Source of the DNA: Burkholderiales bacterium
Lineage (GTDB): Bacteria; Pseudomonadota; Gammaproteobacteria; Burkholderiales; Burkholderiaceae_D
Direction: 5' to 3'
NCBI GenBank assembly: GCA_028868455.1
Contig: JAGWUK010000026.1
Location: forward strand, 1-13,022
DNA length: 13,022 nucleotides
Every line of letters begins with the position of its first letter. Positions within the stretch are counted from its first letter, which is position 1. Position numbers and translations under genes: made by a program. This document shows positions 5,773 to 10,584 of the stretch, piece by piece. Under the pieces are notes generated by a model. The model worked only from the letters and a program-made list of their open reading frames with translations. It made no database searches and was not told the DNA's origin.

Positions 5773-6573
5773 TCAGAAGAACAGGTTTCGTAATTCCTGC
5801 CCCGGATTGTCTGCCCGCATAAATGCCTCACCGACCAGAAAACCATGCACATTGGCGGCGCGCATACGCTTGACGTCGTCGCTGTTCATGATGCCGGATT
5901 CGGTGATCACCAATTTGTCCGGCGATAAACGCGGCAACAGACCGATGGTGGTGTCAAGCGTGACTTCAAACGTACGCAGATTGCGGTTGTTGATGCCGAT
6001 CAGATTGGTCTTGAGTTTTAGCGCAGCATCGAGTTCATTGCCGTCATGTACTTCCACCAGCACATCCATGCCCAATTCATGCGCACAGGCTTCGAGCTCC
6101 GCCATCAAGCCATGATCCAGCGCCGACACGATCAATAATATGCAATCCGCGCCCCAGGCGCGCGCCTGATATACCTGATATGGGTCGATCAGAAAATCTT
6201 TGCGTAGTGCAGGAATTGCGCAAGCGGCACGCGCTTGTTGCAGGTAAGCCGGCGCGCCCTGAAAAAACTGTTCATCGGTCAGCACCGACAAACAGGCTGC
6301 ACCGTGTTCCGCATAACTGGCGGCAATGTCCGCAGGGCGAAAGTCGGCGCGCAACACGCCTTTGGATGGCGAGGCTTTTTTGACTTCAGCGATGACACCG
6401 GCTTGACCGGCCTTGATCTTATTGCGCAGACTCGTTTCAAATCCGCGCAATGCAGCGCGTGCAGCTGTATCGCTTTCGACATCGCTGCGCAGGCTGGCGA
6501 ACGATTGATAGCGTTTGGCGGCAGCGACTTCATCGGCTTTGACTGCCAGGATTTTATTCAGAATATCGGCCAT
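5773..6573 (-). CDS. trpC: Indole-3-glycerol phosphate synthase TrpC
   Basis: A 266-residue (beta/alpha)8 barrel enzyme that closes CdRP to indole-3-glycerol phosphate, with loss of CO2 and water, in tryptophan synthesis. Motifs: [12 protein letters not shown] (61-72) with the substrate-binding Lys, LRKDFLID (123-130) with the catalytic Lys125, VEVH with Glu174, GINNRNL (193-199) and the phosphate-site TESGI (224-228). Length is right for a monofunctional enzyme with no TrpF fusion. Last gene of the trpE-G-D-C array. It starts only two bases after the trpD stop, and its ribosome binding site AAGGGAG lies in the trpD 3' end, so translation is probably coupled. Confidence 0.97.
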
Positions 6574-6575
6574 GC

Positions 6576-7613
6576 TTATGCTCCCTTGCCGAGTTGCTGC
6601 GTCACTTCCACCAGTTGATTCAGTTTGGCGAGAGCGGCACCCGACGCAATCGCTGCCTGCGCTTTTTTGACGCCGTCAGCAATAGAACCGGCGATGCCAG
6701 CACCATACAACGCCGTGCCCGCATTCAGACTGACGATGTCGGTTGCAGCACCAGCGACGTTGTTCATCACTTCCAGAATTTTCGCTTTCGATTCTTCGGC
6801 ACCCGATACTTTGAGCTGACGATTCGAGACCATGTTGAGGCCGAAGTCTTCGGGATGAATATCGTATTCACGAATTTCGCCATTCACCAGTTCACCCACC
6901 ATCGTTGGCGCACCGAGCGAGACTTCATCCATATTGTCGCGGCCCCAGACCACCAGCGCATGTTGCGCGCCGAGGCGTTGCAATACGCGCACCTGAATGC
7001 CGACCAGATCCGGATGAAACACCCCCATCAGAATATTCGGTGCAGCCGCCGGATTGGTCAGCGGGCCGAGAATATTAAAAATCGTCCGCACACCCAGTTC
7101 TTTACGCACCGGGGCGGCATGCTTCATGGCCGCATGGTGATTCGGTGCAAACATAAATCCTATGCCGGTTTGCGCGATGGATTGGGCAATTTGTTCTGGT
7201 TTCAGATTGATGTTGACGCCCAGCGATTCGAGCACGTCAGCACTGCCGGAAGACGACGAAACGCTACGTCCGCCATGTTTCGCCACGCGCGCACCCGCGG
7301 CGGCGGTCACGAACATGGAGGCGGTGGAAATATTGAACGTATGCGCACCATCACCGCCGGTGCCAACGATATCGATTAAATGATCCGTATTGACCATCGG
7401 TACTTTGGTAGAGAATTCACGCATGACCTGCGCTGCTGCCGTGATTTCGCCGATGCTTTCTTTCTTCACGCGTAATCCCATGGTCAGCGCCGTAATCATC
7501 ACCGGTGACATGTCGCCGCTCATGATTTTGCGGAACAGATACAGCATTTCATCATGAAAAATTTCGCGATGCTCGATCAGGCGCGTCAGTGCTTCTTGTT
7601 GAGAGATAGTCAT
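6576..7613 (-). CDS. trpD: Anthranilate phosphoribosyltransferase TrpD
   Basis: A 345-residue enzyme joining anthranilate and PRPP to phosphoribosyl-anthranilate. Motifs: PRPP loop GTGGDG (84-89), NISTAS (94-99), the [15 protein letters not shown] stretch (112-126), and the second metal site Asp229-Glu230 in NMDEVSLG. The usual basic residue in the SVSS-K/R-SGSAD motif is Ser here. It is monofunctional, without a fused TrpG domain. Its ATG overlaps the trpG stop by four bases (ATGA), a classic arrangement for re-initiation. It lies between trpG and trpC. Confidence 0.97.
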
Positions 7614-8182
7614 GATGGAGTTCCAGTCAAAAAGTTTTTCAGCAAGGCATGGCCATGCTCGGACAAGATGGATTCAGGATGGAATTGCACGCCCTGCAGA
7701 TCAAACTGTTTATGGCGTACGCCCATGATTTCGCCATCGTCGGTCCATGCCGTGACCTCCAGACAATCGGGCAAGGTGGCGCGTTCTATGGCCAGCGAGT
7801 GATAACGCGTAACGGTGTAAGGACTTGGCAAGTCGCGGAATACGCCGACGCCAGTGTGGGCGATCAGCGATGTCTTTCCGTGCATGACTTGCTTGGCACG
7901 GATGATGTTGCCACCATACGCCGCGCCGATACTTTGATGTCCGAGACAGACGCCCAGCATAGGAATCTTGCCAGCAAACCGTTCAATCACCGGCACTGAA
8001 ATACCGGCTTCATGTGGCGTGCATGGCCCTGGCGAAATGCAGATGTGATCCGGATTCAATGCGGCAATTTCATCCAGCGTGATTTCATCATTGCGATAGG
8101 TGCGCACATCTTCACCCAGCTCGGCAAAATACTGGACCAGGTTGTAGGTAAAGGAATCGTAGTTGTCGATCATGAGTAGCAT
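7610..8182 (-). CDS. trpG: Anthranilate synthase glutaminase subunit TrpG
   Basis: A 190-residue class I glutamine amidotransferase that supplies ammonia to TrpE. The catalytic triad is visible: Cys79 in MLGVCLGHQ, and His168 and Glu170 in VQFHPES. The oxyanion-side ISPGPCTP (49-56) and the N-terminal [13 protein letters not shown] are typical of the TrpG/PabA family. Because many bacteria share one subunit between anthranilate and aminodeoxychorismate synthases, it may also serve PabB; this is inferred. The ATG follows the trpE stop directly (TAAATG). The likely ribosome binding site GGAG lies in the trpE end. A second in-frame ATG three codons in (8173) is possible. Confidence 0.96.
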
Positions 8183-9679
8183 TTAAATTTCTCCGTCCAG
8201 GCCATCTTGTACTTGCTCGGCAGCGCGCAGTACGGCGCGTGCCTTGTTTTCGGTTTCCTGCCATTCCATTTCTGGCACCGAGTCGGCCACTACACCGGCG
8301 GCGGCCTGCACATACAACATGCCGTCTTTTAATACGCCGGTACGAATGGCAATCGCCAGATCCATTTCGCCGCCAAACGACAGATAGCCGCAAGCGCCAC
8401 CGTAGATGCCGCGTTTGACCGGTTCGAGTTCATCGATCAATTCCATCGCGCGCACTTTCGGCGCACCCGATAACGTACCGGCCGGGAAGGTCGCTTTTAA
8501 CACATCCAGATTCGATAATTCCGGCTGCAAAATGCCTTCGACATTCGAGACGATATGCTGAACGTGGGAATATTTTTCGATCACCATCTGGTCGGTGACT
8601 TTGACACTGCCGGTCCGTGCGATGCGACCGATGTCGTTGCGCGCCAGGTCGATCAACATGACGTGCTCGGCGATTTCTTTCGGATCGGCCAGTAATTCTT
8701 TTGCCAGTTCCGCATCGCGTTCCGGTGTCGCGCCACGTGGGCGAGTGCCGGCCAACGGGCGGATGGTGACTTTTTTATTACCGTCATTGAGCGTTTCGTT
8801 GCGTACCAGGATTTCCGGTGAGGCGCCGATAATCTGCATGTCGCCGAAATTGTAGAAATACATATAAGGCGAAGGATTTAAAGAGCGCAGCGCACGGTAC
8901 AAGGACAGTGGCGAATCAACATAGGGTTTCTTGATGCGCTGGCCGACTTGCACCTGCATCAGGTCGCCTGCCATGATGTATTCCTTGGCTTTTTCGACGG
9001 CTTTTAAATAATCTGCTTTCGCGAAATCACGGATGGATTCAGTACGCACAGACGCCGATGTGACAGGTGCATCGACGCTGCGGCGTAACATGGCGCGTAA
9101 GTCTTTCAATCGTTGACGCGCTTTCGACCAGGCTTCCGGTTGCGTCGGGTCGGCATACACGATCAGGTAAAGCTTGCCGGAAACATTGTCAATGACGGCC
9201 AGTTCTTCAGTCAGCAGCAACTGGATTTCCGGCAGACCCAGATCGTCGGCAGGGGCACTGTGCGCCAGGCGTTTTTCGACATGGCGCACGGTATCGTAGC
9301 CGAAGTAACCGGCCAGACCACCGCAAAAACGTGGCAAACCAGGGCGCAGTGCAACTTTGAAGCGCGCCTGAAATTCTGCGATAAAGGCCAGCGGGTCGCC
9401 TTGACGTGTTTCGGTGATTTGTCCATTTTTGAGCACTTCGATGCGTTCGCCAAAGCTGCGTACCAGCGTATTGGCAGGCAGGCCGATGAAGGAATAGCGT
9501 CCAAAGCGCTCCCCTCCCATGACGGATTCCAGCAAGAAGGTATTTTTACCTGCGTTCTGGGTCTGCGCCAGTTTCAGGTACAGCGTCAGCGGGGTTTCCA
9601 GATCGGCGAACGCTTCCGCGATCATAGGGATACGGTTGTAGCCTTGCGCGGCCAGCGATTTGAATTCGAGTTCGGTCAT
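8183..9679 (-). CDS. trpE: Anthranilate synthase component I TrpE
   Basis: A 498-residue chorismate-utilising enzyme making anthranilate, the committed step of tryptophan synthesis. The tryptophan feedback pocket is present: LLES (49-52) and NPSPYMYF (268-275). Chorismate/Mg motifs include IRPLAGTRPRG (306-316), LIDLARNDIGR, GTLSGAPK (401-408) and GGACGYLSF near the C terminus. Full length with no TrpG fusion. The ATG at 9679 is preceded by GAAAGA. Upstream lies a 220-base leader that contains a Trp-rich reading frame and candidate control sites, so expression probably responds to charged tRNA-Trp in addition to enzyme feedback inhibition. Confidence 0.97.
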   Translation of the reverse strand: MTELEFKSLAAQGYNRIPMIAEAFADLETPLTLYLKLAQTQNAGKNTFLLESVMGGERFGRYSFIGLPANTLVRSFGERIEVLKNGQITETRQGDPLAFIAEFQARFKVALRPGLPRFCGGLAGYFGYDTVRHVEKRLAHSAPADDLGLPEIQLLLTEELAVIDNVSGKLYLIVYADPTQPEAWSKARQRLKDLRAMLRRSVDAPVTSASVRTESIRDFAKADYLKAVEKAKEYIMAGDLMQVQVGQRIKKPYVDSPLSLYRALRSLNPSPYMYFYNFGDMQIIGASPEILVRNETLNDGNKKVTIRPLAGTRPRGATPERDAELAKELLADPKEIAEHVMLIDLARNDIGRIARTGSVKVTDQMVIEKYSHVQHIVSNVEGILQPELSNLDVLKATFPAGTLSGAPKVRAMELIDELEPVKRGIYGGACGYLSFGGEMDLAIAIRTGVLKDGMLYVQAAAGVVADSVPEMEWQETENKARAVLRAAEQVQDGLDGEI

Positions 9680-9796
9680 GATTTTCTTTCAGCCGCCAGC
9701 AAGTGCTCGCAAAATGGAGTGAGGGCGGATAAGACAGATTGATATAACAAGCAAGGAGATGTGCGATGGGTGTGCACAGCTACTCGCGGCATTCTT
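9680..9796 (-). promoter_or_regulatory. trp leader segment with C-rich, G-poor (rut-like) stretch
   Basis: The 117 bases between the leader-peptide stop and trpE. From 9776 down to 9713 the RNA-sense strand has about 24 C and 5 G in 64 bases, mostly as TC, CC and AC steps, which is the composition of Rho utilisation sites. No GC-rich hairpin followed by a U run is seen. CCGCC (9728-9724) could pair with GGCGG (9697-9693), next to the trpE ribosome binding site. A 5-pair stem TGTGC/GCACA lies at 9776-9757. That this is an attenuator is inferred. Confidence 0.4.
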
Positions 9797-9844
9797 TTAG
9801 GAGAATTGCCAGCGTCGCCATAGCCAGGCCTCAAAAGTGCCTGG
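9788..9844 (-). other. Two RNA hairpins over the Trp codons and stop of the leader frame
   Basis: In the RNA sense, CCAGGC (9844-9839) pairs perfectly with GCCTGG (9829-9824) around a 9-base loop; its 3' arm includes the first Trp codon. The second hairpin pairs GGCAATTCT (9810-9802) with AGAATGCC (9795-9788) with one bulged A and places the stop codon in the loop. A ribosome stalled at the UGG codons would affect both, as expected for an attenuator pause structure. Confidence 0.45.
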
Positions 9845-9877
9845 TGTGATTGCGGGACGTTTGTTATCGAGAAACAT
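9797..9877 (-). CDS. trpL: Putative tryptophan leader peptide (26 codons)
   Basis: A short frame starting ATG 23 bases after the gph stop and ending TAA 117 bases before trpE. Trp codons are at positions 18, 20 and 23, reading W-L-W-R-R-W, three codons before the stop. Tryptophan is the rarest amino acid in proteins, so three in six codons immediately upstream of trpE is the signature of a stalling leader. The intervening Leu and first Arg use CTA and CGA, generally uncommon codons. There is no good Shine-Dalgarno sequence, which is the main weakness; re-initiation after gph translation is possible. It overlaps hairpins that could sense ribosome position. The role is inferred from sequence and position, not from a known homologue. 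Confidence 0.65.
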   Translation of the reverse strand: MFLDNKRPAITPGTFEAWLWRRWQFS

Positions 9878-9900
9878 TCGTGATGTGAATGATTTGAAAG

Positions 9901-10584
9901 TCAAAGTTGAGTTGCCGTCGAAAGCAGTTGTGCCGCTTCCAACAGGGTTTCGACTATACCATCACTTTCGACATTTTGTATAGCTTCACCGTGGTTGTAG
10001 CCATACGGCACGTTCAGCACGCGACAGCCCGCTGCTCTGGCTGCAATGGCGTCATTGCTGGAGTCGCCTATTGCCAGCACCTGCTGTGGCTCGAGCTGGA
10101 AATTGCGGCAAACCTGCAACAGCGGCATCGGGTCTGGTTTCTTGCGTGGAAAAGAGTCGCCGCCGTAGATGAGTTGAAAATAATCGTGTAGCCCCTTTTT
10201 CTTCATGAGCGGCAATGCAAATGCCAGCGGTTTATTTGTCACGCAAGCCATGTGTAAGCGCAGGTCGCGCATGGCTTGCAGACCTTCGATGACGCCTGGA
10301 TACAGCTTGCTGTGATCGCCATTAATGTCCAGATAGTGCCGCTGGTAAGTTTCCAATGCATATTCAAAATGGGCTTTTACCTGTACTGCGTCGAAATCGA
10401 CTTCCAGCACTTTCTGGATCAGGTTTTCCGAACCTTTGCCGACCATAACTTTGATCTGTTCCAGTGCCAATGGCGCCAGTTTCAGATCAGTGCGCATACG
10501 ATTAATCGCCTCCAGAAAATCGGGCGCAGTATCGAGCATGGTACCGTCTAGGTCTATGATGACTGCTTTAATTTGTGTGAACAT
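9901..10584 (-). CDS. gph: Phosphoglycolate phosphatase (HAD family)
   Basis: A 227-residue HAD hydrolase dephosphorylating 2-phosphoglycolate, a by-product of DNA repair or Rubisco oxygenation. All four HAD motifs are present: nucleophile Asp11 and Asp13 in DLDGTMLDT, Thr116 in ACVTNKP, Lys149 in RKKPDP, and the acidic GDSSND (Asp174, Asp178). The helical cap domain between motifs I and II places it in subfamily IA, as expected for Gph. It lies between rpe and trpE, the usual betaproteobacterial order. The start ATG at 10584 has only a poor ribosome binding site. The 3' end carries a candidate promoter for the trp genes. Other small phosphate esters are possible substrates. Confidence 0.93.
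   Translation of the reverse strand: MFTQIKAVIIDLDGTMLDTAPDFLEAINRMRTDLKLAPLALEQIKVMVGKGSENLIQKVLEVDFDAVQVKAHFEYALETYQRHYLDINGDHSKLYPGVIEGLQAMRDLRLHMACVTNKPLAFALPLMKKKGLHDYFQLIYGGDSFPRKKPDPMPLLQVCRNFQLEPQQVLAIGDSSNDAIAARAAGCRVLNVPYGYNHGEAIQNVESDGIVETLLEAAQLLSTATQL
9953..9982 (-). promoter_or_regulatory. Candidate internal trp promoter within gph
   Basis: On the minus strand, TATACA (9982-9977) is followed after 18 bases by TATAGT (9958-9953), with TG one base upstream of the -10 (extended -10). Transcription would begin near 9946, giving about 70 bases before the leader ATG at 9877. This would let trpEGDC be expressed apart from rpe-gph. Predicted by eye only. Confidence 0.4.

Follow-up and report, generated by a model that had tools for sequence, protein, structure and literature searches.

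A conserved tryptophan-rich leader frame before trpE in a Burkholderiales bacterium, very likely part of a ribosome-mediated attenuator of trpEGDC

The window analysed here, a stretch of 13,022 nucleotides from a Burkholderiales bacterium, carries a short open reading frame between gph and trpE (9797..9877, minus strand), which very likely encodes the leader peptide through which a ribosome-mediated transcription attenuator controls trpEGDC. This reading is based on the conservation of the frame, its clustered Trp codons, the fixed synonymous sites of its Arg-Arg-Trp-Gln segment and two hairpins that share bases. For the relatives of the window, it assigns a mode of regulation to trpEGDC; combined with a wider survey, it offers a testable view of tryptophan control across the Burkholderiales, where the searches of Rfam, Pfam and NCBIfam recognized no leader.

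The frame (9877-9797 on the minus strand) reads MFLDNKRPAITPGTFEAWLWRRWQFS from ATG to TAA, that is 26 codons and the stop, and tryptophan occupies residues 18, 20 and 23 of the peptide. The initial annotation, which gave no strand, had described such a 26-codon frame with W-L-W-R-R-W at residues 18-23, and this description is confirmed. The leader ATG lies 23 bases after the gph stop codon, and 117 bases separate the leader stop from the trpE ATG. According to NCBIfam, the gene order is rpe, gph, trpE, trpG, trpD, trpC. The following minus-strand genes match their models above cut-off: gph (phosphoglycolate phosphatase, 9901..10584, NF009695), trpE (anthranilate synthase component I, 8183..9679, TIGR00564), trpG (glutamine amidotransferase subunit, 7610..8182, TIGR00566), trpD (anthranilate phosphoribosyltransferase, 6576..7613, TIGR01245) and trpC (indole-3-glycerol phosphate synthase, 5773..6573, NF001373). 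Among the matches listed, the closest TrpE proteins are those of U. pigrum and U. umbellatum (96%), which places the genome of the window near Undibacterium.

The conservation of the frame was followed in the best 80 of 542 confirmed trpE loci obtained from a TrpE scan (counts out of 81 add the window). These loci are mostly labelled Oxalobacteraceae, and a few are labelled only as Burkholderiales, Burkholderiaceae or Proteobacteria. A homologous Trp-rich frame is found upstream of trpE in 80 of the 80, with the core EAWLWRRWQ or a near form of it (WPWRRW, WLWRGW and WLWRRR occur as variants), so that a short ORF with clustered Trp codons stands directly before the first trp gene in the window and in every locus of the set. 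The alignment of the gph-trpE gap, proposed at the outset as a check on the Trp codons in Oxalobacteraceae and their relatives, thus turned out as predicted. An open in-frame ATG precedes the first Trp codon of the core in 80/81 sequences, versus 8/162 for the other two frames; in one locus (L080), the leader starts at GTG. The conservation of the frame and of its in-frame ATG puts the leader ORF beyond chance. Of 145 genomes in the window's family, 103 contain the nucleotide core TGGCNNTGGCGACGCTGGC, a few of the matches lying away from trpE. The genome of the window has a single copy, at the trpE leader.

The codon alignment was anchored on TGG-NNN-TGG-CG or near variants, an anchor which is present in all 81 sequences. 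Trp codons 18 (9824..9826) and 20 (9818..9820), the putative first and second control codons, are TGG in 81/81 as part of this anchor, which leaves the third base of Arg-21 free in its main form. Arg-21 is nevertheless CGA in 81/81, a codon that in the trpE genes specifies 2.3% of the arginines. At Arg-22, 78/81 sequences use CGC; Trp-23 (9809..9811, within the proposed antiterminator stem) is TGG in 79/81, and Gln-24 is CAA in 78/81, for a CAA share of 39% of Gln codons. The 76 sequences with Glu at position 16 all encode it by GAG (GAG usage, 21%). Codon 19 is variable (CTA 40, CTG 22, CTT 14, CTC 2, CCC 3). The fixed synonymous sites after the second Trp codon point to a constraint on the RNA, beyond that on the protein alone, and the stretch 3' of Trp-20 thus looks fixed as RNA as well as protein. 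CTA, the most frequent codon at position 19, accounts for 2.3% of the Leu codons in trpE; the rare codons around the Trp codons (9815-9823 in the window, minus strand) may slow the ribosome besides fixing the RNA.

The proposed terminator hairpin (segments 3:4, 9751..9787) has 12 pairs, each of which persists in 7 to 9 of the nine sequences compared (the window plus eight relatives). At 9783-9755, seven of these sequences have a G-C pair, one has C-G and one has A-U. In the window, the hairpin is followed by a degraded U tract, UUGUUAUAUC (9741..9750), and the tract is likewise degraded in the closest relatives. Over the whole set, a run of at least five T is found 55-135 nt 3' of Trp-18 in 69/81 sequences, versus 15/239 upstream control windows, which lie mostly in gph.

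The pairing was quantified in an alignment (A1) of 32 of the 71 distinct segments, picked for a clear T tract, with Undibacterium left out. It replaced an earlier search which required the hairpin to adjoin the T run and missed the relatives with a CAACG-type spacer. In these 32 relatives, the terminator stem has 74.4% of its cells paired; shuffles reach 66.3%, and slid registers 18-53%. Four rows (L047, L052, L054 and L072) are out of register and depress the count obtained for the stem. The stem has 28 two-sided changes (10.6 in shuffles) and a covariation score of 0.355 (0.212 in shuffles). None of 500 shuffles matched the paired cells, the two-sided changes or the covariation score, while two coarser measures of the same stem in the same relatives are unexceptional (116 and 58 of 500 shuffles are as high). 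The case for an intrinsic terminator combines, in the relatives, the T runs with a covarying stem and, in the window, a predicted hairpin with a degraded U tract.

The window itself was compared with dinucleotide shuffles, and the hairpins that the initial annotation had placed around the Trp codons and the stop are indeed predicted there. The terminator stretch is equalled or beaten in folding by 10 of 200 shuffles, the antiterminator stretch by 11/200 and the entire gph-trpE gap by 2/200. A built-in terminator scan, restricted to loops of 3-8 bases, finds none in the window; the same scan misses the strong terminator of locus L079, which has an 11-base loop, and its negative result in the window therefore carries little weight. 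Two loci (L004 and L006) have a hairpin of the window type with UUGUUUUAU kept. The weakness of the U tract suggests that termination in the window's clade is probably leaky or helped by factors, and the window would then probably be a working but leaky attenuator.

The proposed antiterminator (segments 2:3, 9785..9814) surrounds the leader stop codon, which lies in or near its loop. Predicted by folding and by comparison of the same nine sequences, it keeps ten of its eleven pairs in 7 to 9 of the nine, and the innermost pair in 3/9. In the window, it overlaps the terminator by three bases only (GCG, 9787-9785); in relatives, the codons of Trp-23 and Gln-24 (GGCAAUC) form a helix with GAUYGCC, a segment that extends into the 5' arm of the terminator. 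In the 32 relatives, 87% of the cells of the helix are paired, and the helix together with the stop-codon hairpin reaches 84%, versus 22-67% in slid registers. The antiterminator does not rise above shuffles in this alignment (64 to 306 of 500 are as high, over five measures) because its 5' strand is coding and nearly invariant. When the two states are folded separately, both structures appear in many rows (no count was made), and in some rows, e.g., L018-L022, L065, L066 and L069, the T-tract rule of this procedure took an early T run. Another hairpin, CCAGGC/GCCUGG (9824..9844), is predicted to end on Trp codon 18 and is a possible pause hairpin.

These elements suggest the following mechanism. 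Transcription would start from a promoter that lies within the 3' end of gph. Under a shortage of charged tRNA-Trp, the ribosome would stall at Trp-18 or Trp-20, a position that, judging from usual footprint sizes, would leave at least part of the antiterminator free. The segment CGCUGGCAAUUC could then pair with GAAUGCCGCG around the stop codon, and the antiterminator so formed would block the terminator hairpin and let RNA polymerase continue into trpE. When tryptophan is plentiful, the ribosome would reach the stop codon and cover this strand, the terminator hairpin would form and transcription would end. With the leader stop positioned within or close to the antiterminator loop, a ribosome at the stop would be expected to open the antiterminator. 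The initial annotation had proposed ribosome-mediated attenuation; the covarying terminator of the relatives and the alternative pairing that shares bases with it support this proposal, with the degraded U tract as the weaker point in the window.

Other explanations of the same features deserve consideration. The leader and the stall at its Trp codons could be real, but the off-switch in the window's clade, instead of an intrinsic terminator, would be Rho-dependent termination or occlusion of the trpE start further downstream, after decay of the U tract. The degraded tract of the window and of its closest relatives speaks for this alternative, but members of this clade retain the 3:4 hairpin, in which the pair 9783-9755 has undergone two two-sided changes, and L004 and L006 share the hairpin and have UUGUUUUAU. 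As for masking, the stretch 5' of the trpE start in the window folds like shuffles (z 0.02). We thus regard this alternative as rather unlikely. In L017, L064, L079 and other loci, a possible second hairpin, noticed by eye, stands directly 5' of the trpE Shine-Dalgarno sequence, and its arms seem to covary among relatives; folding of the window gives it no support there.

TnaC is an arrest peptide which senses free tryptophan in the ribosome. A leader acting in the same way, rather than as a codon counter, would explain why the residues EAWLWRRWQ are so strongly conserved over 80 loci, but the conservation extends to synonymous sites, so that the RNA can account for it, and other families share the Trp cluster with a different pattern (WRWR, WRWWR, WPWRRW); an arrest peptide is therefore improbable. 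A chance origin of the frame, as an ORF in a spacer that is not translated, might be argued from its short length and from the lack of a Shine-Dalgarno-like tetramer before it. Given the homologous frames of all 80 loci and the contrast between its in-frame ATG and the other two frames, this reading is very unlikely, to the point of being hardly tenable. Attenuation by a ribosome that counts Trp codons remains the preferred reading.

Inside the 3' end of gph, a sigma-70-like promoter with an extended -10 element is predicted (9953..9982, minus strand): TATACA, a spacing of 18 nt, and TATAGT preceded by TG. It is the sole promoter-like match in 9640-10100 of the window. The extended -10 motif TGNTATANT occurs upstream in 81/81 sequences; among 80 additional loci from the order, 26 have it, whereas none of 161 reverse complements does. 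In the window, the extended -10, TGGTATAGT, lies in the coding 3' end of gph and makes use of an ATA Ile codon.

The start of the leader is less conventional. No Shine-Dalgarno-like tetramer is found 4-17 bases 5' of the leader ATG in any of 80 sequences (9881-9894 in the window, minus strand). This absence is explained by the scarcity of G, which makes up 6% of the bases 5' of the leader ATG: 1.2 tetramers are expected when each interval is reshuffled. Before trpE, such a tetramer is present in 55/81. Similar counts were made on 42 leaders listed by hand from the 53 loci with a Trp cluster in a survey of the order described below (33 outside the window's family and 9 inside). Five of these leaders have a tetramer, versus 4.2 expected on reshuffling, and at least 26 of the same loci have one before trpE, where several of the starts are set a few codons late. 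A leader start without a Shine-Dalgarno sequence poses a real question as to how the leader is initiated.

The Rfam family Trp_leader (RF00513) has no match in the window at its gathering score, and none in 9640-9960 at E up to 10; 14 related loci, searched at E up to 0.1, were likewise negative. The same model finds E. coli trpL with 93 bits. Three of the leader peptides, searched against Pfam and NCBIfam, hit nothing but unrelated families, all below threshold. A covariance model made from relatives, with the window and all Undibacterium loci excluded, recovers the window leader with 31.6 bits (E 8e-6 in 120 kb), and the leader is its only match at E ≤ 0.01 in the window's genome (E 2.8e-4). 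Within the family, four of five members are matched, G101 being the exception. In other families, the model gives weak matches in nine genomes (E 0.002-0.01), none of them at a listed trpE; these are taken as chance, and the E of 2.8e-4 obtained for the window is not far off.

A 2004 survey of attenuation in proteobacteria reportedly covered the alpha and gamma groups. A search of the open-licence literature, covering titles and the opening lines of abstracts, turned up no trp leader peptide described from betaproteobacteria. A survey with Rfam models that included Burkholderia and Ralstonia counts 48 Trp leaders, whose lineages are not given in the part of the article available (PMC3766115). 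As far as Rfam, Pfam and NCBIfam go, the leader thus appears to be a betaproteobacterial type absent from their annotation, and the suggestion of the initial annotation to this effect holds for the libraries searched.

The survey of the order covered the trpE upstream regions of 80 genomes, 60 outside the family and 20 inside, the latter picked mainly for divergence. A frame with a Trp cluster precedes trpE in 53 of the 80 (41/60 outside the family and 12/20 inside), versus 2/80 reverse complements and 4.9/80 Markov shuffles; a few of the 53 are probably due to chance. The eight misses inside the family comprise four loci with two Trp codons further apart, three with one (L147, L148 and L153) and one without a leader (G101, locus L160), in which gph extends to about ten bases from trpE. 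Relatives whose gap lacks a Trp cluster had been named at the outset as grounds for rejecting the leader. One such relative does exist among the 20 divergent members, namely the leaderless genome, and the three with a single Trp codon come close, but all 80 loci of the main set keep the leader, and these four cases are read as loss or reduction in single lineages. In the last 160 bases before trpE of L147 and L148, the reduced leader ends in LWRR and the stop, with a single Trp codon, and is followed by seven T.

In an additional 20 regions from outside the family, a Trp-cluster frame was found in 13. Many leaders outside the family are short (TWRWR, SWRWWR). Among 37 of them ending 35-100 bases before trpE, a T5 run is present in 10 spacers, and C exceeds G in 31. 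Short Trp-cluster leaders, mostly without a T5 run, were read in the last 50-130 bases before trpE in L100, L101, L105, L111, L113, L118, L121, L129, L177 and others. Two candidate features of the other families were set aside. A hairpin involving the Trp codons, seen by eye in L113 and L177, is hardly supported over the loci examined, since the pairing between Trp codons and spacer barely exceeds that of shuffles (mean z 0.36; 12/43 loci have z above 1), and masking of the trpE start by the Trp codons was seen in only three genomes, of one genus of family f21. In L113, a terminator-like hairpin whose 5' arm is formed by the leader's own Trp codons is followed by six T, and a stalled ribosome would directly block its formation.

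If other families have no intrinsic terminator, the stall must act by another route. These data lead us to the tentative proposal, which we consider possible rather than likely, of a large betaproteobacterial class of trp leaders. Its members would have a Trp-codon cluster translated without a Shine-Dalgarno sequence from a G-poor 5' region, and a promoter buried in gph in Oxalobacteraceae; in many other families, where some 40-95 bases separate the leader's end from the trpE start, they would lack an intrinsic terminator, and the stall would work through Rho, by covering the trpE start or by directly preventing the folding of a hairpin that contains the Trp codons. The apparently terminator-free leaders of these families raise the question of how stalling becomes control.

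In E. coli, trpL is followed by alternative hairpins. Like the window leader, it is a small frame ahead of trpE in which Trp codons cluster, and its terminator has a U run; the scan that detected the leader ORF also recovers trpL, as a positive control. The two differ in that the Trp codons of trpL are adjacent, whereas those of the window leader are arranged as W-L-W-R-R-W, in that trpL has the Shine-Dalgarno-like AAGG, whereas no such tetramer precedes the leader described here, and in the promoter-like element inside gph. In Sinorhizobium meliloti, trpL upstream of trpE(G) encodes a Trp-rich leader peptide, peTrpL, with terminator and antiterminator alternatives, according to the available part of the paper (PMC7298713). 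The peptide has three adjacent Trp codons there, and by eye the window peptide resembles it in the Trp cluster only; the initial statement that the leader is unlike those of E. coli and rhizobia is thus upheld, Trp cluster aside, within what that part of the paper gives (PMC7298713). The trp attenuators of Corynebacterium and Streptomyces are described, in the portion of the source at hand, with repeated UGG codons, a GC-rich terminator with a U tract and conserved complementary triples (PMC1262725). They resemble the window in the plan of a repeated-UGG leader and, for the window, a proposed terminator, but belong to another phylum and have double or triple UGG. On present sequence comparisons, the window leader is thus filed as one that would work like a classic trp attenuator, outside the Rfam Trp_leader family.
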